Shown: positions 49,105-64,000 of the stretch, piece by piece
Layout of the letters: every line of letters begins with the position of its first letter
Position numbering within the stretch: position 1 is the stretch's first letter
NCBI GenBank assembly: GCA_902537215.1
Contig: CACBAM010000006.1
Location: forward strand, 1 to 64,000
Direction of reading: 5' to 3'
DNA from: an uncultured Alphaproteobacteria bacterium
GTDB lineage: Bacteria > Pseudomonadota > Alphaproteobacteria > Rhodobacterales > Rhodobacteraceae
Length of the DNA stretch: 64,000 bases
Made by a program: the position numbers and the translations under genes
The notes under the pieces: generated by a model
Databases searched by the model: none
Seen by the model: only the letters and a program-made list of their open reading frames with translations
Told to the model about the DNA's origin: nothing

Positions 49105-51066
49105 CTACAGTATTAAAGACTCATCTAATGACTTAGCATTTTTTGATATAAAGTTAAATCTATATTCAGGGTTTTTGCCCATCAGATTGTCAACAAGTTC
49201 ATTTGTCTCTTTTAGGAATCTTAGATTCAAGCTTATTTGTATCAAGCGTCTTGTTTTAATGTCCATAGTTGTCTCTTTGAGTTGCGAGGGGTTCATTTCT
49301 CCTAAACCTTTAAATCTGCTTATTTGGATTTTATCCATTGATGAACTCAACTTCTCTAATAATGCTTCTTTTTCTTCATCACTATTTGCATAATATATTA
49401 CATCTTTGTATGAAATTTTGTAGAGAGGAGGTACCGCGACAAATAGGTGGCCATCTTCGATAATTTTTGGAAGTCTCGTATGGAAAAGCGCTATTAGAAG
49501 AGAAGCAATATGTGCCCCGTCAACATCAGCATCAGTCATTATAATAATTTTTTCATACCGTAGATTGCTTATGTCATGCGGGGAACTTAATTTTACACCC
49601 AATGCTTTGCAAAGATCATCAATCTCTTGATTTTCCGAGATTTTTTTGTTGCTGGAGCCTACAACATTTAAAATTTTTCCTTTTAAAGGGAGAATGGCTT
49701 GGGTAGCCCTATTTCTTGCCTGCTTGGCACTCCCACCAGCGCTATCTCCCTCAACTAGAAAAAGTTCCGTTCCATCTTTGTCTGATATAGAACAGTCTGC
49801 AAGTTTTCCTGGAAGCATAAGCCTTTTTAATGGTGTTTTTCTAAGAGTCTCTTTTTTTTGTCTAGTCTTTATTCTCTCTTCTGCCCTCATTCGAAGATTT
49901 TCAAGTAACAACAGTGTTCTAGATTTATCATTTGCCAACCAATTTTCGAACCGATCCTTTATTATGCTTTCAACTTTTTTTTGTACTTCCAAATTTGATA
50001 GTTTGTCTTTTGTCTGTCCAACAAATTGAGGTTGCTCAACAAAGACTGATATTGAGCTAGATAAAATTTCTAGTACGTCGTCTTTATTTATCGCAGAAAA
50101 TTTTTTATCTCCTATAATCTCAACGTACGACTTAAATCCCTTAGCAATTGCATTTAGAAAGCCAGTCTGGTGTGTCCCTCCCTCGCTAGTTGGAATTGTA
50201 TTACAAAATGACTTGATAACGGGGTTATAGGAATTGAAGCAAGCACACCAGTGAATGGACCCTTTTTCATCTAAATCAAATTTTTCTTTGAAATCTACCT
50301 CCCCAACAAAATAATCATTTGTAATATTGTATTCTACCGCCGTATTGGATCTAACTAGATCCATCAGTCCATTTTCAAAGTGAAACCTCTCTGATTTTGG
50401 TATTTTATTTAGATTATTTTCTCCAATATTTGGCGCCTTCCAGTCAATCGTTACCCCAGAAAATAGATAAGCCTTAGATTTAGCTAGTTCATATATTTTC
50501 TCTGGATTAAAAAATTTGTTACCACTAAATACTGTTTTATCTGGAGAAAATGTAATTTTCGTACCAGATTTAATTTTTTTTTCTCCTACTTTTAGGAGCT
50601 TACCTACTGGCATGCCTTTTGAGAAACTCTGAGAATAACAAACTCTGTTTTTTACCACCTCTACGGTTAGCTTTTCTGATAGAGCATTAACAACAGAAAT
50701 TCCTACACCATGCAACCCACCGGAAGTCAAATAATTTTTGTCGGAAAACTTTCCTCCCGCATGTAAAGTGCAAAAAATAACCTCAAGGGCAGTTTTGTCT
50801 GGAAATTTTGGATGAAAATCTATTGGTATTCCTCTGCCATTATCAGAAATAGATATTTCTTCTTCAGATATAAACTCGATATCAATTTTTGTCGCGAAGC
50901 CAGCCACGGCTTCATCCATGGAGTTGTCTAACACTTCAGATACAAGGTGGTGAAGACCTTTGCTATCCGTGCCCCCAATATACATACCCGGGCGTTTCCT
51001 GACTGGCTCTAGTCCTTCAAGAACCTCTATTGAAGAAGCGTCATATGCTTGCTTTGAATTAGTAAT
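49105..51066 (-). CDS. parE: DNA topoisomerase IV subunit B (probable AUU start)
   Basis: The ATPase subunit of topoisomerase IV, which unlinks daughter chromosomes. GHKL motifs (EVLDNSMDEA, DNGRGIP, GGLHGVGISVVNAL), TOPRIM EGDSAGGSAKQARNR and TDADVDGAHI are present; NRATQAILPLKGKILNV favours ParE over GyrB. The first ATG (50985) would remove the conserved IEVLEGLEPVRKRPG. Upstream the frame is open to a TAG at 51079-51081 with no ATG, GTG or TTG; an ATT at 51064-51066 lies 9 bases after AGAGG and gives a 653-residue, family-length protein. Confidence 0.93.
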   Translation of the reverse strand: MTNSKQAYDASSIEVLEGLEPVRKRPGMYIGGTDSKGLHHLVSEVLDNSMDEAVAGFATKIDIEFISEEEISISDNGRGIPIDFHPKFPDKTALEVIFCTLHAGGKFSDKNYLTSGGLHGVGISVVNALSEKLTVEVVKNRVCYSQSFSKGMPVGKLLKVGEKKIKSGTKITFSPDKTVFSGNKFFNPEKIYELAKSKAYLFSGVTIDWKAPNIGENNLNKIPKSERFHFENGLMDLVRSNTAVEYNITNDYFVGEVDFKEKFDLDEKGSIHWCACFNSYNPVIKSFCNTIPTSEGGTHQTGFLNAIAKGFKSYVEIIGDKKFSAINKDDVLEILSSSISVFVEQPQFVGQTKDKLSNLEVQKKVESIIKDRFENWLANDKSRTLLLLENLRMRAEERIKTRQKKETLRKTPLKRLMLPGKLADCSISDKDGTELFLVEGDSAGGSAKQARNRATQAILPLKGKILNVVGSSNKKISENQEIDDLCKALGVKLSSPHDISNLRYEKIIIMTDADVDGAHIASLLIALFHTRLPKIIEDGHLFVAVPPLYKISYKDVIYYANSDEEKEALLEKLSSSMDKIQISRFKGLGEMNPSQLKETTMDIKTRRLIQISLNLRFLKETNELVDNLMGKNPEYRFNFISKNAKSLDESLIL

Positions 51067-51146
51067 AGTATAAGGCCTCTAAGATACAACGGGACAACGT
51101 TACATCAATCATTTCAAAATTAATAGTAAAACGTGCAAGAAGCTTT

Positions 51147-51172
51147 AAGGCGTAAGAGCTTGCTTACGCCTT
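51147..51172 (-). terminator. Hairpin downstream of glnA, probable terminator
   Basis: A perfect 10-bp stem AAGGCGTAAG/CTTACGCCTT with a 6-base loop lies 19 bases after the glnA stop and before parE on the same strand. No strong T run follows on either strand, so termination efficiency is uncertain, but position suggests it ends the glnB-glnA transcript. Confidence 0.55.
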
Positions 51173-51190
51173 TCTAAGTGTTTAAAAACT

Positions 51191-52597
51191 TTAAAGCGAA
51201 TAATATAGCCCATACTCGACTGGATGAGGTGTATGTTCGACAGCATATACTTCTTCCCATTTAAGATCCATGTATCCTTCAAGCTGATCTACGTTAAAGA
51301 CATCTCCTTGAAGAAGAAATTCGTGGTCATTTTCCAAGCTATTCAAAGCTTCCCTGAGGCTACCACAAACTGTGGGAATAGAAGCTAATTCGTCTGGAGG
51401 TAGGTCATATAAATCTTTGGTTGCAGCCTCCCCTGGATCAATTTTGTTCTTTATTCCGTCCAATCCAGCCATTAACAATGCTGCAAACGAAAGATATGGA
51501 TTGGCCGTTGGATCTGGGAATCTAGCCTCTACTCTAGTTGCTTTAGATGACTCTACGTAGGGAATTCTGATACTAGCAGATCTATTCTTGGCTGAATAGG
51601 CGAGTAAGACGGGAGCTTCAAACCCAGGTATTAGTCTCTTATACGAGTTTGTAGAGGGGTTTGTGAAAGCGTTCAATGCCTTCGCGTGCTTCAGTATTCC
51701 GCCTATATAGTATAGCGCATTTTTTGATAAGCCTGCATATTCTTTACCAGCGAAAATAGGGCTGTTTCCATCCCATATTGACATGTTTGTATGCATCCCA
51801 GTCCCATTGTCATTGGCAACTGGCTTAGGCATAAAAGTAGCCGATTTACCGTAAGAGTGAGCTACATTTTGGATTACGTACTTATATTTTTGAAGATTAT
51901 CTCCCTGTGCTTTCAATGAATCAAAGACAAGACCAAGCTCATGCTGGCATGAAGCTACTTCGTGATGATGTTTATCAACTTTCATTCCCATTCTTTTCAT
52001 CGTAGACAACATCTCCGATCTAATATCTTGACCGGCATCGGTTGGATTTACTGGAAAGTATCCACCTTTAACGCCTGGTCTATGACCCATATTACCCATA
52101 TCATAACTTGTATCTGTATTCCATGATGCATCCATAGCATCAACTTCGAAACTAACCTTATTCATTGAGTTTGAAAACTTAACGTCATCGAAAAGAAAGA
52201 ATTCCGCTTCGGGTCCAAAAAATGCCTTTGTTCCGATTTTAGTTTTCTTTAGGAAATCCTCTGCCTTTACGGCTGTACTTCTCGGGTCTCTTCCGTATAG
52301 TTTTCCGCTTTCCGGTTCCACGACATTGCAGTGCAAGCAGTATGTTTTTTCAGAATAAAATGGATCAAGGTAACCGGAATCAAGGTCTGGCATTAGTTTC
52401 ATATCAGACTCGTTAATTGACTTCCAGCCAGCTATGGAGGATCCATCGAACATCCATCCACTTTTCAGGAAACCTTCGTCTACTTCGGAAGCCATTACTG
52501 TAACGTGTTGAAGCTTTCCTCTAGGGTCGGTAAACCTCATATCAACGTATTCATAATCGCCTTTCTTAATTTCATTTAGTACTTTTTTAATAGTCAT
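51191..52597 (-). CDS. glnA: Glutamine synthetase type I
   Basis: The 468-residue dodecameric enzyme makes glutamine from glutamate and ammonia. DGSSIAGWKSINESDM, GPEAEFFLFD, KHHHEVASCQHELG and NRSASIRIPYVESSKATRVE are conserved metal and substrate motifs. KDLYDLPPDE contains the tyrosine that is adenylylated in enterobacteria, so covalent control is likely. It is 36 bases after glnB, the PII regulator that informs that control. Confidence 0.97.
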   Translation of the reverse strand: MTIKKVLNEIKKGDYEYVDMRFTDPRGKLQHVTVMASEVDEGFLKSGWMFDGSSIAGWKSINESDMKLMPDLDSGYLDPFYSEKTYCLHCNVVEPESGKLYGRDPRSTAVKAEDFLKKTKIGTKAFFGPEAEFFLFDDVKFSNSMNKVSFEVDAMDASWNTDTSYDMGNMGHRPGVKGGYFPVNPTDAGQDIRSEMLSTMKRMGMKVDKHHHEVASCQHELGLVFDSLKAQGDNLQKYKYVIQNVAHSYGKSATFMPKPVANDNGTGMHTNMSIWDGNSPIFAGKEYAGLSKNALYYIGGILKHAKALNAFTNPSTNSYKRLIPGFEAPVLLAYSAKNRSASIRIPYVESSKATRVEARFPDPTANPYLSFAALLMAGLDGIKNKIDPGEAATKDLYDLPPDELASIPTVCGSLREALNSLENDHEFLLQGDVFNVDQLEGYMDLKWEEVYAVEHTPHPVEYGLYYSL

Positions 52598-52633
52598 AAA
52601 TAACCCCTTTTAAAGTTTGAATTAAAGTTCTTA

Positions 52634-53017
<384 letters not shown>

Positions 53018-53088
53018 TCAATTAACAAAATCTGTCTCGAATAAAAAAACTGAATTTTTGCAGGAAACTGATTAATATTTCTCCATAT

Positions 53089-53103
53089 GCCTAAAAATTA
53101 GGC
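53089..53103. repeat. Short perfect palindrome upstream of glnB
   Basis: GCCTAA-AAA-TTAGGC is a perfect inverted repeat about 117 bases upstream of the glnB start. It does not match the NtrC consensus and has no T tail. It may be a regulator site; nothing else is recognised in the 237 bases between glnB and the tRNA. Confidence 0.35.
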
Positions 53104-53209
53104 TAAATGAAATCATATTTTAGTGTGTCTTGTCTTACACTGTAAAAAATAATGAAAGTAGTTTTTTTTATTTTAATTTTCATTATTGTTGCTATTAATT
53201 ATTTAATAC

Positions 53210-53294
53210 GCGGGTGTGGCGAAATTGGTAGACGCACCAGATTTAGGTTCTGGCGCCTTAGGGCGTGTAGGTTCAAGTCCTATCACCCGCACCA
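53210..53294 (+). tRNA. tRNA-Leu (anticodon UAG)
   Basis: The 85-base gene folds with acceptor stem GCGGGTG/CACCCGC, anticodon stem CCAGA/TCTGG and anticodon TAG at 53244-53246. A class II variable arm (GCC-TTAG-GGC) and the T arm with GTTCAAGTC follow, and CCA is encoded. It reads CUN leucine codons. Its 3' end is the attachment core of the adjoining island. Confidence 0.97.
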
Positions 53295-53375
53295 TAATCA
53301 TGATCTTATTAGACCTAAAGCACTGATTTATAAACATTTAATGATGTTTGTTCAATTAGGTATGAAACAAAATGA
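53281..53375 (+). repeat. Inverted repeat 1, left arm (attL plus left end)
   Basis: These 95 bases start with the tRNA 3' end and reach the integrase ATG. The reverse complement occurs at 54902-54996 with 6 mismatches and no gaps. The arm contains the whole upstream region of the integrase, so the promoter and ribosome site are duplicated with it. Confidence 0.92.
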
Positions 53376-54551
53376 GAAACAATTATGGTATTAATCACAT
53401 TATGAACCGTAATGGTGTGTACTATTACATTAGACGAGTGCCATGCGATCTTAGTGATTTCTATGCAATCAAAAGACTTTGCTTTAGCTTAAAAACCAAA
53501 TCCATCAATACTGCTAGATGACTCTCAAGATCAATTGAGCAGAAGCTAGTAGATTATTGGTTGGAGTTGAGACTTCAGAATTTAGACATTCCTCAAATAA
53601 AAGTATAGTCACAGCCAAGTAGTTCATCTTATCATGAAGGTGTGTGCTTAACTGAAGCTCTTGAGCTTTATCTTAAATTGAAAGGGCAGGGTAAAGATCA
53701 AGTATTTTTTAGGACAGCAAAAAGAAATATCAGATATGTAACGAGTTTGTTAGGAGACAAACCTTTGTCTGCTTATTCCTCTAAAGAAGCAGGACAGTTT
53801 CGTGATTGGTTATCAGAGAAGGGTATGGGAGTGAATACTGTTAAGAGAGTATTTTCAACAATCAGATCAATTATTAATATCTGTATAACTGAAATGGGGT
53901 TGGAGTGTTCCAACGCTTTCTCTAAGACCTTTATGCCTAGTGTTTTCAATGGTGAGGGTAGACAACCTATTCCCCAAAAAAAATATAGAAATAATAAAAG
54001 CAGAATGTCATCGGTTAGATGATGACATGCGTTGGTTGGTAGCGTTACTCTGCGATAGTGGTTTGCGATTAGGTGAAGCAACTGGGCTTGCTAAAGACGA
54101 TCTAGTACTTGATCACTCAATTCCCCATATAAAAGTCAAACCTCACCCATTGAGAAGCTTAAAGACTGTAGGTAGCGAAAAAGAAGTTCCTTTGATAGGT
54201 ATGTCACTATGGGCAGCAAACAGAATTAAAAACAATGGAAGTCCGTTTAAGTTTGCTTTTCCAAGATATACTGATGATCACTTTTCAAATGCTAATTCTG
54301 CATCAGCAGCTTTAAACAAATGGCTTAAGCCATTTGTTCCAGAAAACTGTGTCATTCATTCATTTAGGCATAGCTTTAGAGATAGACTGCGTAATGTTGA
54401 ATGTCCTTTTGACATTATTGATAGGTTAGGGGGGTGGATTACTTCTGGAATAGGGCAGACATATGGCAAAGGTTATGATTTAAATGTACTTAGTAAGTGG
54501 ATTTTAAAAGTAGATAGCAACATACTGAACAAAATTGAGAAGTCCAACTAA
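53372..54551 (+). pseudogene. Tyrosine recombinase (island integrase), disrupted
   Basis: A phage-type integrase with an N-terminal domain like DUF6538 (RNGVYYYIRRVPCDLSDFY), a SAM-like core and a catalytic domain with SGLRLGEATGL, HSFRHSFRDRLR and a terminal YGKGY tyrosine. It is broken by an in-frame TGA (53519-53521), an in-frame TAG (53606-53608) and a frameshift at an eight-A run (53976-53983), after which the frame from about 53986 carries the catalytic part. It lies directly after tRNA-Leu, its presumed target. The expected catalytic His/Trp before the tyrosine reads GWITSG. Confidence 0.9.
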
Positions 54552-54905
54552 CCCAAGTGCCAACATTGTAAGAAATATACCTCCCCCTCGGAGAATAATG
54601 CTTTTCCTTAACATGAAAGAAAATAGGATACCGTGCATTAATCGTCCAATCATGAACATAATAGCTAGACTATGAAGTATATGATTATGCGTTCCAGCTT
54701 CCTCAGCAAGATAAAGTAAGATAAAAAATAATGGAGCATACTCAATAAAGTTGCCATGACCTCTCACAACTCTATGGACTATTTCTTCATCATCTTTTCC
54801 ATAACTTATAAAGTTGAATAGTGGGTTTCCTCTAATGGCGAATATTCTTACTGTAAGAAGAAGAAAGAAACCAGTCGCCAAAGATGCATAAAGTTGAGTT
54901 ATCAT
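54504..54905 (-). CDS. MAPEG-family membrane protein
   Basis: The 133-residue protein has four membrane segments and the MAPEG signature RVVRGHGNFIEYAPLFFILL near residue 45. Such proteins relate to microsomal glutathione S-transferases; bacterial substrates are mostly unknown. Its ATG is exactly at the inner edge of inverted repeat 1, so it has nearly the same 90 bases upstream as the integrase. Its 3' end overlaps the convergent integrase remnant by 48 bases. Confidence 0.85.
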   Translation of the reverse strand: MITQLYASLATGFFLLLTVRIFAIRGNPLFNFISYGKDDEEIVHRVVRGHGNFIEYAPLFFILLYLAEEAGTHNHILHSLAIMFMIGRLMHGILFSFMLRKSIILRGGGIFLTMLALGLVGLLNFVQYVAIYF

Positions 54906-54996
54906 TTTGTTTCACACCTAATTGCATAAATATCATTAAATGCCTATAAATCAGTGCTTTAGGTCTAATAAGATCATGATTATGGTGCGGGTGATA
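54902..54996 (-). repeat. Inverted repeat 1, right arm (internal core plus left-end copy)
   Basis: Read on the minus strand this is the tRNA core TATCACCCGCACCA (54996-54983) followed by a copy of the island left end, 89 of 95 bases identical to 53281-53375. It is joined on its other side to a copy of the island right end, giving an attP-like junction. Confidence 0.92.
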
Positions 54997-55200
54997 TACA
55001 GTTAAATGCCCTTTTAATGCACCACTAGCAAATGAAATACAGCAATAACAGTAACTTAGGTATCTCCGTATTCATGTCAATAGGCACGATTTGTTTCACA
55101 GTTTGTTTTACAGTTTAAGTGACACCTTCCACGCATGGGACAGTGGGGGTACTTACGTAGTATGTTCTTGGAGGATGCAGCAGATGGGGTGTTTTTTATA
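54983..55200 (+). repeat. Inverted repeat 2, left arm (copy of island right end)
   Basis: About 218 bases whose reverse complement matches 60839-61050 with small gaps and an identity I estimate by eye at roughly three quarters. Shared blocks include GTGATATACA, ATGCACCACTAGC, TGAAATACAG, CTTAGGTAT, TCAATAGG and the 56-base motif. No coding capacity is evident. Confidence 0.82.
55134..55189 (+). repeat. 56-base dispersed repeat, copy A
   Basis: This copy runs from CATGGGACA to GCAGCAGATGGGG. Between these ends lie GGGGGTACTTACGTAGT and TGTTCTTGGAGGATGC. It is part of inverted repeat 2 and is in plus orientation like copy B, while copies C and D are on the minus strand. Confidence 0.85.
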
Positions 55201-55277
55201 CAAAAGCTAACTTAATCTCTTTGACAAATAGTTAAACGAACTTAATTGCTCTGCATGCAAATGAAAAAGGATTTCAG

Positions 55278-55526
55278 ATGGAAGAAAATAATGATGGCTT
55301 TGGCATAGCATTCGTAACGATAATATTTGTTGCATTTATTTTACCTTCGATTGTACTTTTATCGGTTGGAGATACATGGGACCGATTTACCGATAAGTAT
55401 GGTTCTGCTGTCACAGCCGAATGTTGGGAAAATAGCAAGCATGAAAAGGTTTGTCGAAGTGATAGCAAGTGTAGATTTGGGCGTTTATTTTGTATAGATG
55501 AAGGTTTCAGATGGCAAGCCGATTAG
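55278..55526 (+). CDS. Small single-pass protein with cysteine-rich tail
   Basis: The 82-residue product has one membrane segment (residues 10-29) and then about 50 residues with four cysteines (AECWENSKHEKVC, SKCRFGRLFC), suggesting disulfides or metal binding outside the membrane. I do not recognise the family. The ATG follows AAGGATTTC, a good ribosome site, and the end overlaps the next gene by 16 bases, which supports both as real. Confidence 0.55.
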   Translation: MEENNDGFGIAFVTIIFVAFILPSIVLLSVGDTWDRFTDKYGSAVTAECWENSKHEKVCRSDSKCRFGRLFCIDEGFRWQAD

Positions 55527-55786
55527 AATCTATTTTTAAAAATATATTTGGGAAGGAATTTTATTCTAATCTTTGGATTGCTATTTCCTTTGGATTACTT
55601 TCCCAAGTAATTGGTTATACAAAATACGAGGGATATTTTGATCTTTATTGGATAGTTATGAAGGATGGTTATCTTTACCTTAATTTATATCCTAGCTTTG
55701 ATGAGCTAAGTGTTATTTTATTCATTAGAGTATTTCTAGCTATATTTGTCTTTCTAACCGTTAAAGATAAACTAAAAGGTAACTAA
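55511..55786 (+). CDS. Small two-pass membrane protein, unknown
   Basis: The 91-residue product has two likely membrane segments (about residues 20-38 and 66-83) and no known motif. The ATG follows GAAGGTTTC at good spacing and overlaps the preceding small gene, so the two probably form a unit. Function unknown. Confidence 0.5.
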   Translation: MASRLESIFKNIFGKEFYSNLWIAISFGLLSQVIGYTKYEGYFDLYWIVMKDGYLYLNLYPSFDELSVILFIRVFLAIFVFLTVKDKLKGN

Positions 55787-55787
55787 T

Positions 55788-55946
55788 ATTACAGAAGAAT
55801 TTTCGGGAAATGTAATGGATTACGTTAAATACAAATTAACCGTAGCCTGAATAGCAGCATATAATGGTGGAGATGGAAGTGGCTACTGAAAAAGCTGTCG
55901 AGATTATAGATATATAAACACACAATGTGGCGGAGAGATTAAATAG
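55788..55946 (+). pseudogene. Remnant of a lysozyme/transglycosylase-like protein
   Basis: The frame encodes VMDYVKYKLTVA, a TGA (55848-55850), IAAYNGGDGSGY, a second TGA (55887-55889), then KSCRDYRYINTQCGGEIK and a TAG. AAYNGG resembles the end of lytic transglycosylase domains. Trp would fit both TGA positions, consistent with TGG-to-TGA decay. The N-terminal part is missing. The call is tentative. Confidence 0.4.
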
Positions 55947-56047
55947 CTAGGAACTTACTTGCGCTCTATCCGTAAAAACTTTATTTTTAATATTGCATGT
56001 TACTACGTGCTTAGATTGTCTTCTTGTTTTATTTTAGCTATGGTAGG

Positions 56048-56103
56048 CATGGGACACTAAAAGGTACTCACGTTGTAGTTTTTTGGAGTGTGCAGCAGAT
56101 GGG
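56048..56103 (+). repeat. 56-base dispersed repeat, copy B
   Basis: CATGGGACA, AAGGTACTCACGT and TTGGAGTGTGCAGCAGATGGG place this in the same family as copy A. It ends 4 bases before the cyclase stop codon and, with inverted copy C, brackets the two cyclase genes. Confidence 0.8.
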
Positions 56104-56107
56104 TTAG

Positions 56108-57412
56108 TCAGTCGTAAATCTTTACTAAGTCTATCCCTTTTTTCCGTCCTCTTATTTTAAAATTTTTTATATTTTTATACTTTTTCGGTAAAATTATTTT
56201 GTCTGCAAATTCTTTACTTACTACAAAATTTGTATCGAATTCTTTACAAGAGTCACATATTCTGCTCGCCACATTTACAGGATCTCCAATAACAGCAAAT
56301 TCTGTCCGCAATTTACTTCCAATATTTCCAAAAACACACCTGCCATAGTGGATACCAATTCTGTGCGATAGTTGTTGCAGTCCTTTCTCTTTTCTTAGCT
56401 GATTCCAGTTCTTTAGCCTTTCATTCATATCCAATGCGCAATTGAAAGCATTTTGGGCATCATTTCCTGAAGACTTAGGTGTTCCGAAGTTTGCCATAAC
56501 TGCATCACCAATAAACTTATCGACTGTGCCTTTATGCGCAAAGATAGAATCTACCATCATTGTTTGATATTCAGATAGCAAAAGTAAAACATCTTTTGGA
56601 TCCATTTTTTCAGAAAGCTTTGTGAAACCCACAATATCGGTAAACATTATTGCAATATCTAGATCTTTTGAACTCTGGTTTTCAAAAGTACTTGCTGTTT
56701 TTTCTATCTCGTCTTTTATATCCGGAGAAAAATAACGCCCCAAAACTATATTAGCCCTTTCTGTTTTCTTTACCGATGCAATGACAGCCTGGAAAAAGAA
56801 AAAGATAATAAAAAGTCCAATCGTAAAAAAGCTCAAGATTGTAATATTATCCATCAAAATAAATGAATTAATTGCCATGGGATCAATCACAAGAACATTA
56901 AAATAATCTTCTGATAAAAAAGTTTTTGGGTGACTGATGTGAATAGTCAGGTAAAAAAATAGTGGGAGTATAGTTAATATTACATTTAACACAACAGCCC
57001 ATAGCCTTAAAAAAAATAGTGATATTAATAGAAAAATTGGAACATTTATAAAAACATAATCGGTCCATTTCCCCATACCGGCAAAGGCGCTCTCCTTGTC
57101 TGCATACACCATGTTGTAAATGTAGCCTTGAAAATCATTGCGAATAAACATAGAAATATGGACTAGCAATAGAAAATATATGAGAAAGATGGCGTAGTTT
57201 CTATTAGTAACGTACTTATAGCCGATGAAAGATAAGATCAGCCAGAAAAAAGGAAAGAAAACTGTAAATGCTTTTATCAAAGGAACCCGAGCATTTGCTA
57301 TGTCATAGCTCTGATTGAGGAGGCTATAAACAGCAACTAATGCTAAAAAGACACTACCACCTTTTAATGCTTTTAATTCCCATTCAGTACCTTCAGTGAG
57401 AAATTTCATCAT
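56108..57412 (-). CDS. Membrane-bound class III adenylate/guanylate cyclase
   Basis: The 434-residue protein has six likely membrane helices (residues 17-225) and a C-terminal class III cyclase domain. Metal aspartates are in FTDIVGFTKL and FIGDAVMANF, and the transition-state residues are in IGDPVNVASRI. The lysine in VDKFIGD and the aspartate in VIGD suggest ATP as substrate. It lies 7 bases downstream of the second cyclase gene, so the two are probably co-transcribed. No effector gene is adjacent. Confidence 0.9.
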   Translation of the reverse strand: MMKFLTEGTEWELKALKGGSVFLALVAVYSLLNQSYDIANARVPLIKAFTVFFPFFWLILSFIGYKYVTNRNYAIFLIYFLLLVHISMFIRNDFQGYIYNMVYADKESAFAGMGKWTDYVFINVPIFLLISLFFLRLWAVVLNVILTILPLFFYLTIHISHPKTFLSEDYFNVLVIDPMAINSFILMDNITILSFFTIGLFIIFFFFQAVIASVKKTERANIVLGRYFSPDIKDEIEKTASTFENQSSKDLDIAIMFTDIVGFTKLSEKMDPKDVLLLLSEYQTMMVDSIFAHKGTVDKFIGDAVMANFGTPKSSGNDAQNAFNCALDMNERLKNWNQLRKEKGLQQLSHRIGIHYGRCVFGNIGSKLRTEFAVIGDPVNVASRICDSCKEFDTNFVVSKEFADKIILPKKYKNIKNFKIRGRKKGIDLVKIYD

Positions 57413-57419
57413 TTAAATA

Positions 57420-59249
57420 TTATTTAAGGCCGGCTTTTCTCATTCCATCCAAAAGAATATCTTTAATTTGTTGGTTAAGCTCCGGAATAACCTTTTCATA
57501 GTCTTCTATAGTTTTGATTTCAGGTCTATTTTCTTGATATTTTTTAAGCCACTTTCTGCTTTCTTCGATTTTACCCTCATTAGCCAAAACAACAGCTTTA
57601 AATGCATGATATCTGCTGTGATCATTTTCTCTCATGCTTCTATCAACAGACTGATTAGCATTCAGCCAATCATTCTTTCCTAGATAACAGAATAAAAGCA
57701 TTGTTTCATAAAATGGCACTGCCTTACGATTACTTTCATTTGCTCTATTAAATAAATCAATTGCATTATCGTAATCACACTCTTTTAAGTAAAGCATGCC
57801 TTTAGCTTGAAGTGATCTCGAATGGTGAGGATTTATTTCAACAGCTTTGCTAACAAATTCTCTATATTTTGTTTCATCATTTGAAATCCTAAACAGAAAT
57901 GCAAGATTCAACACAGAGTCAGGATTATTAGGATCAAGACTATAACTTTTTTCTGCTACCTCTCTGTATCGAGCTTCATTTTTCTCACGATCGTGTTGAA
58001 GAGAAGATTCTAACCGAAGAAAGACTAAGCACGAAGCAAGAACATTATATGCATCCGTTAAATTTCTATTTAAAGCAATTGATTTCTCTGCATGCTCAAT
58101 TGCTTCGTAAAGATATTTAATTTTCTTTTCAACATTTTTAGCTTCACTACTTTTATCATAAGAATTCAATGAATGAAGATACTCATCCCAAGCACTAAAA
58201 ATTTTCAAGTCCTTATTATTTAGTTTGTTTTGTTCGTTTAATATAATTGCAGGTAAAGCTAAAGCTGAAACCTTTTGAGATACCTCATCCTGCACTTCAA
58301 AAATATCGTCTAAAGATCTATCCCAAGTTTGAGACCAAATTTGAACATCGTTTAAAGCATCTGTAAGCTTAGCCGATATTCTTACTTTATTTCCACCTTT
58401 TCGAATACTCCCTTGCACTAGATAATTAGCATTCAAACCATTTGCTATGTCTTTAGTTGCTTCTTTAGAGTTTTTATATTTCATCACCGAATTTAATGAA
58501 ACAATAGGAAATGTCTTTGATTTTGAAAAATAAGAAATTGTATCTTCTGTTATACCATCAGCAAAAAATTCTTGTTCTTGATCCGTACTAAGATTAGCAA
58601 ATGGCAAAACAGCTACAGTTGGAGGAACACTACCTTCATTTATTTTTGCAGAGGCAGCTGCCGTAACTTTTTCATCTATATTAGAACGCTTTTCAAGATC
58701 AGGGATATCTAAGTCATATGCATGAACAAATGTATTTTTTACTTGTTGTTCCCCAAGATCATTAAAAAGTAGTTCTGTCTTTTTATTTACAAAATCCATT
58801 ATGCTTTTAGATAAACAAACACCACTAGGCTGTGATAATGCTTCCAATCTTGCGGCAACATTAACTCCATCACCGTATAGATTTTCACCTTCAACTATAA
58901 CATCACCCATATTAAGACCAATTCTGAAGTGCATTTTTGCGTCATCAGAAACTGAATTATTTCTCTCTTTTAAAAGTTTTTGAAATTCATTAGCACAAAT
59001 TACTGCTGAGACGGCACTTTGAAATTCAGCTAAAACAGAATCTCCGGCAGTATTGAAAATTCTTCCACCATGTTCAGTAAATAATTTATCTAATATATCC
59101 TTACAAACTCTAAAACTTCTTAAAGTCTCATCTTCGTTTTTCTCCATTGACTTGCTAAAACCTACAACGTCAGTAACAAAGATAACTGCAATTTTTCTTT
59201 CTATAACTTGATTAAAATCATTTTCTAATTTCACTACATTTTCACTCAT
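57420..59249 (-). CDS. Cyclase domain fused to TolB-like and TPR domains
   Basis: The 609-residue soluble protein starts with a class III cyclase domain (residues 15-180; VTDVVGFSKSM, NTAGDSVLAEF, YGDGVNVAARLEAL). A TolB-like/FlgO segment follows (about 205-335; VAVLPFANLSTDQEQEFFAD), then TPR-like helical repeats (about 360-590). This architecture is frequent in alphaproteobacteria. The usual lysine for base recognition is replaced by Asn/Thr. It is the promoter-proximal gene of the cyclase pair. Confidence 0.9.
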   Translation of the reverse strand: MSENVVKLENDFNQVIERKIAVIFVTDVVGFSKSMEKNEDETLRSFRVCKDILDKLFTEHGGRIFNTAGDSVLAEFQSAVSAVICANEFQKLLKERNNSVSDDAKMHFRIGLNMGDVIVEGENLYGDGVNVAARLEALSQPSGVCLSKSIMDFVNKKTELLFNDLGEQQVKNTFVHAYDLDIPDLEKRSNIDEKVTAAASAKINEGSVPPTVAVLPFANLSTDQEQEFFADGITEDTISYFSKSKTFPIVSLNSVMKYKNSKEATKDIANGLNANYLVQGSIRKGGNKVRISAKLTDALNDVQIWSQTWDRSLDDIFEVQDEVSQKVSALALPAIILNEQNKLNNKDLKIFSAWDEYLHSLNSYDKSSEAKNVEKKIKYLYEAIEHAEKSIALNRNLTDAYNVLASCLVFLRLESSLQHDREKNEARYREVAEKSYSLDPNNPDSVLNLAFLFRISNDETKYREFVSKAVEINPHHSRSLQAKGMLYLKECDYDNAIDLFNRANESNRKAVPFYETMLLFCYLGKNDWLNANQSVDRSMRENDHSRYHAFKAVVLANEGKIEESRKWLKKYQENRPEIKTIEDYEKVIPELNQQIKDILLDGMRKAGLK

Positions 59250-59703
59250 TTACGATCACTTTTTTATCAATTGTTAATCTAATTAAAAAACCCTAATCTC
59301 AAACGTTTCAAACAAAAATATTACTTAGAAACTACGGCTGTAAGTGAAGAGCCATATTTAAAACATCATTTTTTTTTTGACAAATTAACTTTAACCAAAT
59401 TTTATCCGAGTTACAAGTTTACCAAACATTCCATCTGCTGCACACTCCAAGAACATATCACCTGCACTCCCCGTGTGCTTCATACATTTGAGGGCATACC
59501 AAATGATAATCCGGAAATGGCTGTTAGTCTCTTGTCAAGTTACCGATCTATACTATCTCCAATATAGATCTGTTTCTGTAGTTAAATAGTAGAAAAGGTA
59601 TTATTAAAAAGCTTGGAGCAAGATCGAAGAACTGGGTTATTAAAGTTTAACATAATTTTTTCTTTCATTGGCTAAAATATGGCGGCCTAGATAGAAGATT
59701 TTT
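59250..59703. other. Intergenic stretch with repeat C and a hairpin
   Basis: These 454 bases separate the divergent cyclase and cytochrome genes. They hold repeat copy C and a perfect 8-bp stem GATCTATA/TATAGATC (59545-59570) with a 10-base loop. No reading frame with recognisable protein content is seen. Confidence 0.6.
59431..59480 (-). repeat. Dispersed repeat, copy C (inverted)
   Basis: Read on the minus strand it shows ATATGTTCTTGGAGTGTG and CAGCAGATGG, the best match to the core of copies A and B; the CATGGGACA side is degenerate. It brackets the cyclase pair together with copy B. Confidence 0.75.
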
Positions 59704-59739
59704 TTGGGATTTAAGAGTACTGTAAAAAAAGCGGGTGAA

Positions 59740-60249
59740 ATGAGATATTCTTTTGGAATAATAGTATTACACTGGACAACTGCCGTGCTAATGTTCGCTT
59801 TGGCCACTTCTGGACTGTTATATAGTTATAAAATTGTTGGTTCAAATGCATTGATCTTTCATCAGTGGGGCGGACAGCTCCTTTTAGTTCTTGTTTTTAT
59901 CTGGATCGCAGTAAGGCTAGTTTTCGGAGTTGGTCCACCTGATTCTGATCATGTATGGTGGGAAAAGATACTAGGAGCATTAGTTAAAATCACGCTATAT
60001 GCACTTCTTATTGCTTACGTCGTTACTGGCTACGTTACGGCGTCGGGCCTCAGAAACTCTGAGCTGTTGTTTCCCATTAATGTTGCCTTTGCCAGATCTG
60101 ACTCAGGGGACTTGTTCATGGAAGCTCACTTTGCATTAAAATGGGTCTTATTCATAGTTCTTGGTCTCCATGTCTTGGGCACGATTAAACATAGTTTTAT
60201 AGACCGTGACAAAACATTTAGAAACATATGGATAACAAAGAAAGGATAA
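59740..60249 (+). CDS. Cytochrome b561-family membrane protein
   Basis: The 169-residue protein has four membrane helices with histidines placed to bind two haems: LHWTTA in helix 1, FHQWGG in helix 2, AHFALKW in helix 3/4 and LHVLGTIKH in the last. It likely moves electrons between quinones and a periplasmic partner, here the Rieske-like protein encoded 7 bases downstream. The ATG at 59740 is preferred over an in-frame TTG at 59704. Confidence 0.87.
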   Translation: MRYSFGIIVLHWTTAVLMFALATSGLLYSYKIVGSNALIFHQWGGQLLLVLVFIWIAVRLVFGVGPPDSDHVWWEKILGALVKITLYALLIAYVVTGYVTASGLRNSELLFPINVAFARSDSGDLFMEAHFALKWVLFIVLGLHVLGTIKHSFIDRDKTFRNIWITKKG

Positions 60250-60256
60250 CCTGAAT

Positions 60257-60775
60257 ATGAAAAAAATTTCTCGTCGTCATGTAATTGTCAGTCTTGCGAG
60301 CACAGCCACATTTTTATGTCCAGCTGTGCTCAAAGCAGCAACGACTGCAGATTTAACTGGTTGGGCTAATATCCCAACTGATATTCCAATGGGGCTTAAA
60401 CAAGTTCTGCGACTTGGAAATGGTCCCGCGAGCATTGATATTTCACAACTTAAACCTGGAGATGTTAGTGTAATTGCCCGCCCGAATGATAGTGCAGACT
60501 ATGCAGGTACTGGACAGACGCAATTTGTTGCGGTAATGCGTAGAGATAAAGACTACCTGATTGTTGAATTGACCTGCCCTCATAAAGGAAAAGCCATCGG
60601 TCTAACAGGAGATCCTAAAGTGCCATTCGCCTGTACCAAACGTGGCAGGTACCACTCTAGTGAGTTTGACTCAAATGGTCTTGGAGTTGCAGGTAAATCA
60701 TCAGGAGATCTAATGATTGTTCCAGAGCATAAGTTGAACAGTTCTAACGGAAAAGTAGTACTTGAACTTGCCTAG
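60257..60775 (+). CDS. Tat-exported Rieske-like protein with altered cluster motif
   Basis: The 172-residue product begins with a twin-arginine signal (ISRRHVIVSLAS) and a likely cleavage near LKAA (residue 28). The C-terminal half is Rieske-like: the first pair is Cys107-Pro-His109 and the second region reads FACTKRGRYHSSEFD with Cys126 and His133. A normal second motif is Cys-x2-His; here Gly130 (GGC) stands where Cys (TGC) is expected. It probably pairs with cytochrome b561, but cluster binding is doubtful. Confidence 0.78.
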   Translation: MKKISRRHVIVSLASTATFLCPAVLKAATTADLTGWANIPTDIPMGLKQVLRLGNGPASIDISQLKPGDVSVIARPNDSADYAGTGQTQFVAVMRRDKDYLIVELTCPHKGKAIGLTGDPKVPFACTKRGRYHSSEFDSNGLGVAGKSSGDLMIVPEHKLNSSNGKVVLELA

Positions 60776-60855
60776 CCTCGATAATTTCTTGAGTATATCA
60801 ATACCAAAAAATAAAGTTATGCAGAGAAATATAGCAGCTATAAAAAATAATAGTT

Positions 60856-60910
60856 CCCTTCTGCTACATACTCCAGTAACACACTACGTTTATACCCCCT
60901 ATGTCCCATG
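60856..60910 (-). repeat. Dispersed repeat, copy D (inverted)
   Basis: On the minus strand it reads CATGGGACATAGGGGGTA, then ACGTAGTGTGTTACTGGAG and TATGTAGCAGAAGGG. It is the inverted partner of copy A inside inverted repeat 2. Confidence 0.82.
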
Positions 60911-61036
60911 AGTGGGAAGGGTCTCGTCAACCGTGAAACGTTTCCGTACCTATTGACTTGAGCATGGATATACCTAAGCTACTACTGTTACTGTATTTCA
61001 GTCGCTAGTGGTGCATCTAAAGGGCGTTTAAATGTA

Positions 61037-61050
61037 TATCACCCGCAACA
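61037..61050 (+). other. Probable attR: tRNA-Leu 3'-end copy
   Basis: TATCACCCGCAACA differs by one base from TATCACCCGCACCA at the tRNA 3' end (53281-53294) and is in the same orientation, 7.76 kb downstream. It marks the likely right boundary of the island. Confidence 0.7.
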
Positions 61051-61073
61051 TACTCCTAGGCACTTCTATTGTT

Positions 61074-61490
61074 TTAGCCAGCGAAGTTCTCTCCAGTTTT
61101 TTTAGGAGCCATTCTAATCAGTCTTGAGGTTTTGACTGCAATTTGTCTGTGTAGTACCGCCTTTTGATAAGTCTTGTCTCTTTGCATTAATACAAACGAT
61201 TCAACAGTTGGATACTCAGCAATAAAGCATATATCCCATTTCTCATCAGCTGGACCTATCAATCCAATTAACATATCTCCTCTCCATACAATCGATCCTC
61301 CCAATCTTTTAAAAACGGGTTCACTTTCTTCTCCATAACGCATGTATGCTTCAGAACCTGTTGTAATGAAGCCATCTGGGTAAATAGCTTCTTCCTTAAG
61401 CTTTATCAGGTTCAGCATGTGCAAACGTTTACTATCTTTAATATTCTTAAAAGATTTATATGTATCTCTATCAAATGCAACGTATTCCAT
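61074..61490 (-). CDS. DUF1330 family protein
   Basis: The 138-residue ferredoxin-like (alpha/beta barrel) protein contains LHMLNLIKLKEEA, TGSEAYMRYGEESEPVFKRLGG, WRGDMLIGLIGP and FIAEYPTVESFVLMQRD, typical of DUF1330. Biochemical role unknown. It lies just outside the proposed right attachment site, so it is probably the first chromosomal gene after the island. Confidence 0.85.
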   Translation of the reverse strand: MEYVAFDRDTYKSFKNIKDSKRLHMLNLIKLKEEAIYPDGFITTGSEAYMRYGEESEPVFKRLGGSIVWRGDMLIGLIGPADEKWDICFIAEYPTVESFVLMQRDKTYQKAVLHRQIAVKTSRLIRMAPKKTGENFAG

Positions 61491-61758
61491 ATTTTTTACC
61501 TTTGTAAAACGAATTATAAATATTTACATTTCATTATAATCTTTTAAGATCTCTCTACCATCCTTTTGAAGAGCTCTTCCAATCAGGTAACTATAATAGA
61601 TTTCATTCTTTTCGTATTTATAAGAACCAAGCCAAAAAGTTCTTTGTCAGATTATTCTAATTTGCTAAAATTTTGCCGTAACAATTTTCTATCTCACTGA
61701 TTTTTTGAAAAATTGGGTAAACACCAGTAGTTGAAAAATTTTAAAATTATGGATCTAA
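61491..61758. other. Intergenic stretch with a possible short gene remnant
   Basis: 268 bases lie between the divergent DUF1330 and acetoacetyl-CoA synthetase genes. On the minus strand 61524-61646 is an open run of about 40 codons (for example TFWLGSYKYEKNEIYYSYL) with protein-like composition but no usable start, possibly the tail of a decayed gene. Confidence 0.25.
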
Positions 61759-63723
61759 ATGAGTTCGAGAAAAATAATATGGAAACCCTCTGCTAAAAGA
61801 AAAAATTCATCAAGTATGAAATGTTTTATGGATTGGTTACGAGATGACCGTAATCTTTGTTTCGAAGATTTCAACGAACTATGGGAATGGAGCGTGAACG
61901 ATTTGGAAGGGTTTTGGAAAAGTATTTGGGATTATTTTGGTTTAAGGTCAAGCACTACATTTTCTAAAGTCCTTGATAAAGAAAAGATGCCTGGGGCCTC
62001 GTGGTTTAAAGGAGCAAATGTAAACATAGTTTACGAAATTTTTAATAATTATCAAGAGATTAGAGATAATACTGCCATTTCCTTTCGCTCTGAGACCCTA
62101 GGTGACGGAGTATTGACCTGGGAGGAGTTAATATCAAAGACAAATTCGCTTGTTGTAAAGTTTAAAGAACTTGGAGTCCAAAAAGGGGATCGCGTTGTCG
62201 CAATACTTCCAAACACGCCCCATTCCCTGATTTCTTTTTGTGCAACTGCAAGCATAGGTGCAATTTGGTCTCTCTGTGCTCCAGACATGGGCGAAAACGC
62301 AATTTTAGATCGATTCAAGCAAATAAAGCCCAAAGTGCTTATCTGTCAGGACAGCTATGTATATGCGGGTAAAATTATTAATAAAGTCAATAGTTTACGG
62401 AATATAATAAAAAAATTACCATCGCTATCTGATACAATTCTAGTTAAAATTAAGGATAATTCATTAACTAAAAAGCAATTAGAATGGAACAATATAATGC
62501 GTCTCAGGGGAGAAACCGAAATAGAGATGCTACCTTTTGATCATCCTCTTTGGATAGTATATTCCTCCGGTACTACTGGCAATCCAAAACCTATAGTTCA
62601 TGGTCACGGAGGGATATTGATAGAGATGACAAAGCAATCTCTCCACATGGACATCACTAAAAATGACCATTTTTGTTGGCTTACATCCTCAGGTTGGATA
62701 ATGTGGAATGTTCAGTTATTGGCTTTACTTAGAAAATGCTCAATTGCAATGTTTGACTTTGCTCCAAATTATCCAGATTTTTTAGAGGTATGGAGAAAAG
62801 TTGATGAAGAAAAACTCACTTATTTTGGTGCTGGAGCAGCTTTCTTTACGGCTTGCATGAAATCGAACATTGTACCGAAGAATAAGTTTAATTTTGATAA
62901 ACTTAGATCTTTGGGAGCAACTGGCTCGCCATTAAGTCAAGAAGGGTACAACTGGATATACCAGAAAGTTAAATCAGATATTTGGTTAGCACCTTTATCC
63001 GGAGGAACAGACTTCGCTGGCGCATTTGTAATCGGCAACCCGCTTTTAGATGTTAGAGAAGGAGAAATGCAATCGAAGTCCTTGGGTTGCTCAGTATATG
63101 CGTTTGATGACAATGGAAATTCTGTGGTAGGGAAGGTAGGAGAGTTAGTGTGCACAAAGCCTTTGCCTTCCATGCCACTCTATTTTTGGGGTGATAAACA
63201 AAATAAAAGATTAAAAGAAAGTTATTTTGAAACATTTCCAGGTGTCTGGAAACATGGAGATTGGATAGAATTCACTGATTACGGAGGGTCAGTAATATAT
63301 GGACGATCAGACGCAACAATAAATAGGAGAGGTCTTAGATTAGGGTCATCTGAGATTTATCGAGCTGTAGAAGCACTTTCAGAAGTAATGGATAGCGTTG
63401 TTGTTGACCTGGAATACTTAAACAGAGAAAGTAATATGACACTGTTTGTAGTTTTATATCCCGAAATCGCATTGTCTAACAGTTTAAAAGAAAAAATCAG
63501 TGGTGCGATAAAGAACTCCATATCAGCTAGGTTTATACCAGATAAAATCATAAAAATTAATGAAGTGCCAAGAACCTTATCTGGCAAAAAGTTGGAGGTT
63601 CCTATTAAAAAACTTCTACTTGGTTCAGACCCCAAAACTGTTGTAAACAGAGAATCTATGGCTAATCCTTCAAGTTTTGAGTTCTTTGTCACATATGCCA
63701 AAAACCAAACCTTTAAAGTTTAA
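61759..63723 (+). CDS. Acetoacetyl-CoA synthetase
   Basis: The 654-residue adenylate-forming ligase activates acetoacetate to acetoacetyl-CoA. The AMP/ATP motif is IVYSSGTTGNPKPIVHGHGG, followed by SGWIMWNVQL, LSGGTDFAGAFV and the hinge/core GRSDATINRRGLRLGSSEIY. The C-terminal lysine in RTLSGKKLEVP is the residue often controlled by acetylation. The N-terminal FWKSIWDYFG and overall length fit acetoacetate-CoA ligase rather than acetyl-CoA synthetase. Confidence 0.93.
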   Translation: MSSRKIIWKPSAKRKNSSSMKCFMDWLRDDRNLCFEDFNELWEWSVNDLEGFWKSIWDYFGLRSSTTFSKVLDKEKMPGASWFKGANVNIVYEIFNNYQEIRDNTAISFRSETLGDGVLTWEELISKTNSLVVKFKELGVQKGDRVVAILPNTPHSLISFCATASIGAIWSLCAPDMGENAILDRFKQIKPKVLICQDSYVYAGKIINKVNSLRNIIKKLPSLSDTILVKIKDNSLTKKQLEWNNIMRLRGETEIEMLPFDHPLWIVYSSGTTGNPKPIVHGHGGILIEMTKQSLHMDITKNDHFCWLTSSGWIMWNVQLLALLRKCSIAMFDFAPNYPDFLEVWRKVDEEKLTYFGAGAAFFTACMKSNIVPKNKFNFDKLRSLGATGSPLSQEGYNWIYQKVKSDIWLAPLSGGTDFAGAFVIGNPLLDVREGEMQSKSLGCSVYAFDDNGNSVVGKVGELVCTKPLPSMPLYFWGDKQNKRLKESYFETFPGVWKHGDWIEFTDYGGSVIYGRSDATINRRGLRLGSSEIYRAVEALSEVMDSVVVDLEYLNRESNMTLFVVLYPEIALSNSLKEKISGAIKNSISARFIPDKIIKINEVPRTLSGKKLEVPIKKLLLGSDPKTVVNRESMANPSSFEFFVTYAKNQTFKV

Positions 63724-63754
63724 AATTATTGTATTGTAGGTAGATGGGTTACTA

Positions 63755-64000
63755 TTACACTCTTAATATTGGTCTCGTTAAACAGGTAGGACCTCCTTCA
63801 CAACCAATGCACAAAGCGTCACCGTCGAACGTATAAACAGTAACTCCGTTTTTTTCTAGAGCCTTTTTTGTTCTAGGGCAGCCAGAGATCATCACACAAA
63901 TTCCAGGTTTAATAGCAAGCACATTAATATTTAGGCCTTCACTAGAAATGAACTCATCTTCTGGTGCTTCAATTAGCTCGTAACCTTTTTTCTCAAGTAA
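63755..64000 (-). CDS. Amidinotransferase/DDAH-family protein (5' end outside window)
   Basis: The last 81 residues of a minus-strand gene are present. SSEGLNINVLAIKPG, ISGCPRTKKALEKNGV and the C-terminal GCEGGPTCLTRPIL, with the catalytic cysteine in GGPTC, match the arginine deiminase/dimethylarginine dimethylaminohydrolase fold. Substrate cannot be fixed from this part. The stop is 31 bases from the convergent acetoacetyl-CoA synthetase stop. Confidence 0.82.
   Translation of the reverse strand, partial: LLEKKGYELIEAPEDEFISSEGLNINVLAIKPGICVMISGCPRTKKALEKNGVTVYTFDGDALCIGCEGGPTCLTRPILRV

Follow-up and report, generated by a model that had tools for sequence, protein, structure and literature searches.

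The standard example of bacteria storing and reshuffling individual genes is the integron. Other gene stores grow by insertion beside one RNA gene: according to the available excerpts of PMC2764846, the ssrA islands of Dehalococcoides arise by tandem accretion at a single RNA gene and are marked by repeats of its 3′ end, and in the available excerpts of PMC10872708 the Methylopumilus island fGI-2 shows multiple insertions at one RNA gene, likewise marked by 3′-end repeats. The latter excerpts also give a tRNA border, a tyrosine recombinase and a length of 4–200 kb as traits of tycheposons, with which the 7.8-kb island considered here is compatible. This island occupies positions 53281–61050 of the 64,000-nucleotide stretch that was analysed (the window; contig CACBAM010000006.1 of an uncultured alphaproteobacterium), where it lies at a tRNA-Leu gene, holds three copies of the tRNA 3′-end core and carries several copies of a short repeat, termed HEAD, between its genes. 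It is read here, with a probability of about 0.7, as an integrated tRNA-Leu element with two levels of recombination, namely an integrase acting at the cores and the joining of cassettes at a box that starts each HEAD. The cassette array was missed by the preliminary description of this DNA, and it is a more important feature than the inverted attachment (att) site to which that description drew attention.

The HEAD Repeat and Its Distribution

HEAD is a repeat of about 50 bp. It opens the right end of the island and recurs in clusters between genes, both here and on other islands. The 316-bp middle junction of the island, used as query, has matches in 20 of 22 genomes of the genus (incomplete assemblies of 1.0–2.3 Mb) and in 0 of 39 others. 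A profile search over 70 stretches (915 kb, 21 genomes) returned 175 HEAD copies on 59 stretches from 20 genomes; the stretches were chosen mostly for holding matches, so these counts are not a density estimate, and nested stretches (L099, L101, L104 and L105), short loci inside longer ones and the exact-box loci, which belong to the same genomes, were dropped from later counts. Of 390 genomes of the order, an even draw from a larger group (140 genera), two have the box with no more than three mismatches: the window genome and one genome with a single three-mismatch match. The exact 22-base box was found on 22 stretches of the genome collection, all of them from uncultured Alphaproteobacteria with AG- isolate names, and the viral contigs gave 0 exact matches. 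The window genome has 11 matches to the box at up to three mismatches, and because the 10 listed are all HEAD copies, no parent RNA gene for the box is seen among the matches listed. HEAD repeats also occur at tRNA-Ser(GCT) on two stretches (L010 5262–15290 and L134) with an Arm-DNA-bind_3 type integrase (tested in L010), and HEAD is therefore not tied to one integrase class. One HEAD copy keeps the same flank families (u13, d9) in four genomes (L013, L157, L164 and L165) and is probably a fixed relic.

The HEAD Box as a Joint between Cassettes

The box joins many different neighbours. Among flank families with at least two members, 27 of 32 upstream families are found with two or more downstream families, and the converse holds for 17 of 22 downstream families, the largest of which, d0, groups related right arms together. 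The upstream flank loses its linkage around box position 13, and linkage with the downstream flank sets in around position 21, in CCCATCTGCTGCACACTCCAAGAA; these differences are small and were judged by eye. The ends of homology blocks between genomes collect at the same place: of 3945 block ends, 841 are no more than 40 bp from the centre of a box, compared with 92 for shifted boxes (standard deviation 25, maximum 195 of 500), and when ends are merged in 20-bp bins the figures are 343 of 1790 and 41 (standard deviation 9, maximum 81). These blocks are alignments of 250–12000 bp between different genomes, with ends at least 150 bp from contig ends, and 145 of 169 boxes have such a block end.

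The units between HEADs behave as discrete pieces. Neighbouring HEAD pairs are co-oriented in 99 of 114 cases (spacings below 60 or above 6000 bp omitted), and the open reading frames (ORFs) in 98 same-direction units of 200–6000 bp run along the HEAD direction in 82 cases and against it in 60. Recurring cassettes have near-fixed lengths and ends with changing neighbours; for instance, the window unit at 55189–56103 measures 866 bp between HEADs and 886–894 bp in four other genomes, with all five outer-neighbour pairs different, and a cytochrome b561-like unit of 1380–1384 bp recurs on five stretches. Six small families of cassette starts are joined directly to HEAD. In 61 comparisons the outer flank families agree and one array has additional cassettes between them; many of these comparisons involve the broad right-arm families d0 and d1. 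Scripted alignments cover six gains or losses whose flanks are cassette-specific, and of these four involve a single cassette, one a pair and one a set of three; flank identity is 78–98% upstream and 80–91% downstream, the change of neighbour falls in the box, control alignments on the wrong side are short only (59–79%), and gain and loss are not distinguishable in these cases. Two simpler sources of the pattern were rejected: HEADs are not copies of a miniature inverted-repeat transposable element or other transposon, as the flanks change independently on both sides and whole units move, and chance does not account for the HEAD, block-end and core patterns, given the shifted-box and shuffle controls.

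Anatomy of the Island

As had been described, the core from the 3′ end of tRNA-Leu, TATCACCCGCACCA, is present in three copies with the middle one inverted (14/14, 14/14 and 13/14 positions), and at up to two mismatches these are the only matches in the window. Shuffled controls give 0.06 matches on average and 0 of 100 shuffles reach three; since the similarity moreover extends beyond the core, the three-core pattern is real and not due to chance. Alignment bears out that the middle copy reads right end, core and left end on the minus strand, like a flipped attP. The features are as follows.

53210–53294, plus strand: tRNA-Leu gene, anticodon TAG (in DNA), the integration target (ARAGORN, Rfam RF00005)
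53281–53294, plus strand: core 1, the tRNA 3′ end (14/14)
53295–53378, plus strand: left arm L, containing the ATG that opens the integrase reading frame (alignment)
53372–54551, plus strand: tyrosine integrase (type A) pseudogene with internal stops and a frameshift (intact copy in L051)
54504–54905, minus strand: MAPEG-family gene, convergent with the integrase, start codon inside L′ (PF01124, E 9.7e-16)
54899–54982, minus strand: inverted left arm L′ (core plus arm differs from core plus L in 7 of 98 columns)
54983–54996, minus strand: core 2, inverted (14/14)
54997–55138, minus strand: inverted right arm R′, family A, with repeats of AAACTGTGAAACAAA type (aligned to the right end and other copies)
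55139–55188, minus strand: HEAD repeat 1 (nhmmer, 48.3 bits)
55189–56103, minus strand: cassette unit (d3, u2) with ORFs of 82 and 91 aa, no Pfam match; HEAD repeat 2 at 56052–56103
56104–59429, minus strand: block between HEADs with facing boxes, holding two adenylate/guanylate-cyclase-domain genes, 56108–57412 and 57420–59249 (PF00211)
59430–59477, plus strand: HEAD repeat 3 (nhmmer profile and box pattern)
59478–60856, plus strand: cassette with a cytochrome b561 gene (59704–60249, PF01292) and a gene for a 172-aa protein (60257–60775)
60857–60905, plus strand: HEAD repeat 4, opening the right end (nhmmer, 32.2 bits)
60906–61036, plus strand: right arm R (aligned to the middle copy)
61037–61050, plus strand: core 3, the right boundary, attR (13/14)

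The hallmarks of a tRNA-targeted integrative element are present, with a tyrosine integrase beside the tRNA gene and a direct repeat of the tRNA 3′ end at the far end. Three inverted pairs connect the ends with the middle: 53281–53378 and 54899–54996 (98 nt, 93% identity), 54978–55088 and 60945–61055 (111 nt, 83%), and 55105–55188 and 60856–60939 (84 nt, 76%). The outer 50 bp of the right end has two further copies inside the island, at 56103 (−) and 59431 (+), and the HEAD copy of the right end itself, at 60857, is more diverged, being detected by the profile and not by the 23-base box pattern at up to three mismatches. After R′ the cargo runs in the order of two small ORFs, two cyclase-domain genes, and cytochrome b561 with its 172-aa partner, followed by the right arm and core 3; the 172-aa protein has no family match, and a similar ORF pair adjoins HEADs in other genomes. 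The integrase is broken in the window and intact in L051, to which its pieces are 87% and 88% identical; one piece holds TGA and TAG, and the Pfam matches of the pieces are PF13102 (below cut-off) and PF00589 (above cut-off).

A search of Rfam over 50000–64000 found the tRNA only, with no other known RNA motif. Between 53000 and 55300 the promoter scan gave 6 sites against 8.8 expected, nothing above shuffles, and there are 4 terminator-like sites against 1.3 expected, none of them between the tRNA and the integrase. The integrase and MAPEG frames both open with an ATG in the end of a left arm (window 53372–53378 and 54899–54905; L051 11254–11260 and 12780–12786), and the left arm may supply start signals to whichever gene comes next. 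Just outside the island, a DUF1330 gene (window 61074–61490) belongs to a kind that sits behind right ends elsewhere (L044, L100 and G020 C8) and may be an older cassette.

The Inverted att Module in Other Genomes

The order tRNA, core, left arm, integrase, inverted left arm, core, right arm is not limited to the window. In L051, from the same genus, it stands at tRNA-Leu(GAG): the 389-aa integrase is intact, the same MAPEG gene converges on it, and the core (GAG-type) and left arm form a perfect inverted repeat of 94 bp, after which the right arm continues until the contig stops inside R′. In G020, at tRNA-Thr, a second integrase type (51% identity to that of L051) is followed by an inverted left arm, core, right arm and HEAD, with an exact inverted repeat of 81 bp. 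In L096 the integrase is split and only the MAPEG gene and the inverted left arm remain. The junction of L′ and MAPEG behind an integrase is thus present in three genomes (window, L051 and L096), the inverted L′ behind a second integrase type adds a fourth (G020), and core′ and R′ are retained in three of the four (window, L051 and G020).

Of the two origins first proposed for the middle copy, the retention of an inverted att site inside the element is the one that the recurrence of these junctions across genomes favours; repeated integration followed by a chance inversion may have been the first origin of the module and fails to explain that recurrence. The possibility named at the same time, that the middle junction is an artefact limited to the window assembly, is unlikely because the same junctions are present in other genomes.

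Three further arrangements were observed. In L096 (249–5452) the pieces of a type A integrase lie about 5.2 kb apart, as if inserted DNA had split the gene. In L135 (2632–3105) two att sites stand back to back with no gene between, joined at a shared arm repeat, and an apparent partial tRNA-Leu(CAA) lies inside, as judged by eye. L045 (7472–9243) holds a very small element made of tRNA-Leu(GAG), a left arm, one epimerase-like gene and a right arm, with no integrase between.

Probable Exchange between the Inverted Arms

The inverted left arm is old, since the same junction of MAPEG and L′ is present in the window, L051 and L096. Where core′ is present, at three loci, the left arms of a locus differ little from each other (0–7 differences): over the 98 columns of core and arm, L and L′ differ at 2 in L051, both outside the exact 94-bp repeat, and at 7 in the window, and this most diverged pair is the one beside the dead integrase. 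Between the window and L051 the arm copies show 13–17 differences over 98 columns, and the genes have diverged as well (integrase 1050/1170, MAPEG 330/391). For comparison, left arms in direct orientation inside one locus are 78–87% alike (4 pairs), and the median for 258 pairs taken from different loci is 82%; L′ of G005 is unlike all other arms, with 19–22 differences over 94. The inner core fits the local tRNA at all three loci with core′ (TAG, GAG and Thr type). Taken together, and on sequence comparison of these three loci, the pattern points to repeated exchange, by inversion or gene conversion, as the simplest source of an inner arm and core that fit the local target.

Right-Arm Families and History of the Locus

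Three families of right arm (A, B and C) are distinguished by eye, each with its own repeats and all opening with the same HEAD. Family A and B arms are attached to cores of different tRNAs, also by eye, and the family C arm includes part of tRNA-Thr. As the three families share HEAD, the box joins cargo to integration specificity. Direct tandem junctions of right arm, core and left arm in the tRNA orientation also exist, for example at L042 9527 and, on a contig without the tRNA, at L053 5997.

Length variation at this tRNA in relatives had been set beforehand as a test, and it was found: the distance from tRNA-Leu(TAG) to a common downstream gene is 0.28 kb in G019, a near-empty locus, 2.25 kb in G004, 5.6 kb in G020, 7.6 kb in G002 and 8.0 kb in G015, against 10.5 kb in the window, which makes the locus variable. 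In L129 and L130 the contig ends near the tRNA and the distance is not measurable.

Search for a Recombinase

The recombinases of the genus comprise XerC/XerD-like frames, the most widespread tyrosine type, and scattered phage-type integrases, with serine recombinases in 13 of 22 genomes; a serine recombinase as the box enzyme was rejected on that distribution. The integron integrase model TIGR02249 has no match above cut-off in the 22 incomplete genomes (0/22); weaker matches occur in 20 of them, mostly in frames of 309–328 aa, and the two in the window genome match XerD/XerC-type models best, slightly below the XerD and XerC equivalog cut-offs. The attC-like box pair RYYYAAC..GTTRRRY was found around 0 of 172 HEADs (1.2 expected). 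HEADs fold no better than mononucleotide shuffles (mean z −0.47, with 2 of 40 sampled copies below −2), and an internal hairpin in HEAD is accordingly unsupported.

A pattern search found CGCATAATATATATTATGTTATTT, which we take to be the dif site of the genus and which lies three mismatches from the dif consensus, as one copy in 15 of 22 genomes. Around the crossover zone its arms do not match the box, as judged by eye; part of the reversed HEAD resembles a XerD arm by eye, and this candidate was rejected because its orientation does not suit the crossover zone. In a set of 50,697 phage records the 316-bp middle junction has no DNA match and only 3 records show weak integrase similarity (27–29% identity), and tblastn of two integrase queries against viral contigs found no relative, so a phage source of the ends or the integrase was rejected. 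The listings from the literature searches contain no description of the HEAD box or of the cassette system.

Proposed Mechanism and Alternative Explanations

At the first level of the preferred reading, the phage-type tyrosine integrase would act on the tRNA-derived cores, integrating and excising the element as a whole, as its family and the anatomy suggest. The integrase module has a normal left end at the tRNA and a second complete att site, R′-core′-L′, in reverse. In this layout the cores split the island into an integrase segment between inverted left arms and a cargo segment between inverted right arms, and with a working integrase either segment could invert with the tRNA and outer ends intact. 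Inversion of the integrase segment would place either the integrase or the MAPEG gene behind the tRNA, speculatively an expression switch. The integrase gene is broken in the window genome, and its island is therefore probably now a relic. At the second level, the array is integron-like: cassettes of one or a few genes are joined at the box of 20–25 bp that starts each HEAD, and are gained, lost and shuffled there. A dedicated site-specific recombinase presumably acts at the box, and the cassettes would pass through circles. As right arms of three att families attach through the same box, cargo and integration specificity would be exchangeable alike.

A wider version of this proposal, which we put forward tentatively and with somewhat less than even confidence, is that a streamlined marine alphaproteobacterial genus harbours a novel cassette system. 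In it the double-stranded box of 20–25 bp, unlike attC and dif, would be the universal joint for a recombinase that adds, removes and reorders cassettes and swaps right ends, and the inverted att site would allow the integrase to flip both its gene and the cargo.

Several findings weigh against the two-level reading. No recombinase could be assigned to the box; a search with the type A integrase finds nothing in 11 of 20 HEAD-bearing genomes (the genomes being incomplete); HEAD faces away from the integrase in only 6 of 9 cases with a HEAD downstream; and the linkage changes at the box are small and were judged by eye. The inverted left arm was not found behind type B integrases, core′ and R′ are present at three loci only, one of them (L051) with its contig ending inside R′, and these loci show one orientation only, with no circle among the assembled sequences. 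Arm types also follow the tRNA target and not the locus alone, since the L arms of L051 and G005, both at tRNA-Leu(GAG), differ in 3 of 98 columns and in 1 of the 258 pairs from different loci the arms are identical. Chimeras formed during amplification are frequently inversions. The relatives carry AG- isolate names, one such isolate being termed a single-cell genome in the available excerpts of PMC12416821, and some record titles say MAG (metagenome-assembled genome).

Among the alternatives, ordinary homologous recombination between short HEAD repeats, with no dedicated cassette system, survives best, and RecA acting at these repeats is a possible, though in our judgement rather unlikely, source of the arrays. 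A repeat of about 50 bp, similar enough over some 20–25 bp for occasional exchange, would suit it, as would the failure to find a cassette recombinase in the genus genomes. The concentration of block ends at boxes (145/169 boxes; 841/3945 ends) and the change of linkage within about box positions 13–21 (by eye) speak against it, and HEAD is near the lower length limit for RecA exchange as generally understood.

Somewhat less probable again is tandem integration at the tRNA, in which one later inversion flipped the middle junction and the internal HEADs are truncated right ends of tandem copies. The direct junctions in L042 and L053 are of the kind it predicts, and accretion of this sort at one RNA gene is known from Dehalococcoides (excerpts of PMC2764846). 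It leaves unexplained why the junctions of integrase, MAPEG and L′ recur in three genomes, next to different tRNAs in two (TAG in the window, GAG in L051), why L′-core′-R′ stands behind another integrase in a fourth, and why the cassette starts, in six small families, sit directly at HEAD and are not random truncations of right arms.

That XerC and XerD move the cassettes at dif-like sites, in the manner of pdif modules, is improbable. In its favour, XerC/XerD-like frames are the most widespread tyrosine recombinases of the genus, two of them in the window genome; against it, the presumed dif differs from the box in the crossover zone (by eye). An amplification or assembly artefact behind the inverted middle copy is very improbable; the relatives appear to be single-cell genomes, in which inverted chimeras are common, and the arm copies are identical in G020 and L051, whereas the window pair L and L′ shows 7 differences in 98 columns and has MAPEG in between, and the same junctions recur in other genomes. 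An integron, or an attC array without integrase (CALIN), would fit small head-to-tail cassettes with a shared site mostly in one direction (99/114), and is ruled out for the features tested, as TIGR02249 (0/22), the attC pair (172 HEADs) and extra folding (mean z −0.47) are missing and genes run both ways (82 and 60).

Significance

The locus suggests integron-like logic without integron integrase or attC in an uncultured marine genus with small genomes. The cargo is mostly metabolic-looking, with hydrolases, cyclases, a BioY-family protein, cytochrome b561 and MAPEG. If the proposal is true, there would be a second cassette economy besides integrons, which would help to explain how the flexible gene pool of small marine genomes is held at few tRNA genes, and a short double-stranded site might become usable as a recombination tool. 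The inverted att module is a case in which self-inversion by an integrase may occur and can be tested.

Comparison with Known Systems

Tycheposons, as far as the available excerpts of PMC10872708 describe them, are likewise cargo elements of aquatic bacteria that have a tRNA border and a tyrosine recombinase, and the HEAD arrays and inverted att module, which are not among the traits described there, set the present island apart on description. The islands of Methylopumilus and Dehalococcoides, on the excerpts cited above, share with it several insertions at one RNA gene; there, however, the repeats are those of the RNA gene, whereas here most cassette borders are the HEAD box, and the integrase module here contains an inverted full att site.

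The array partly acts like the pdif (XerCD) modules of Acinetobacter, which are modules between short sites moved without a recombinase of their own (excerpts of PMC12907356); the site differs, since the HEAD box is unlike the presumed dif of the genus, and HEAD sites are mostly co-directed. Integrons (IntI, attI and attC) resemble the array in their small head-to-tail units with a shared site, shuffled between arrays and genomes. In contrast to them, HEAD arrays have no IntI above cut-off, their box shows sequence conservation without folding, genes lie on both strands, the arrays stand beside tRNA genes, and the box also joins cargo to integrase-specific right ends. The array therefore acts like an integron yet fails its tested defining features, namely integrase, attC and gene direction.

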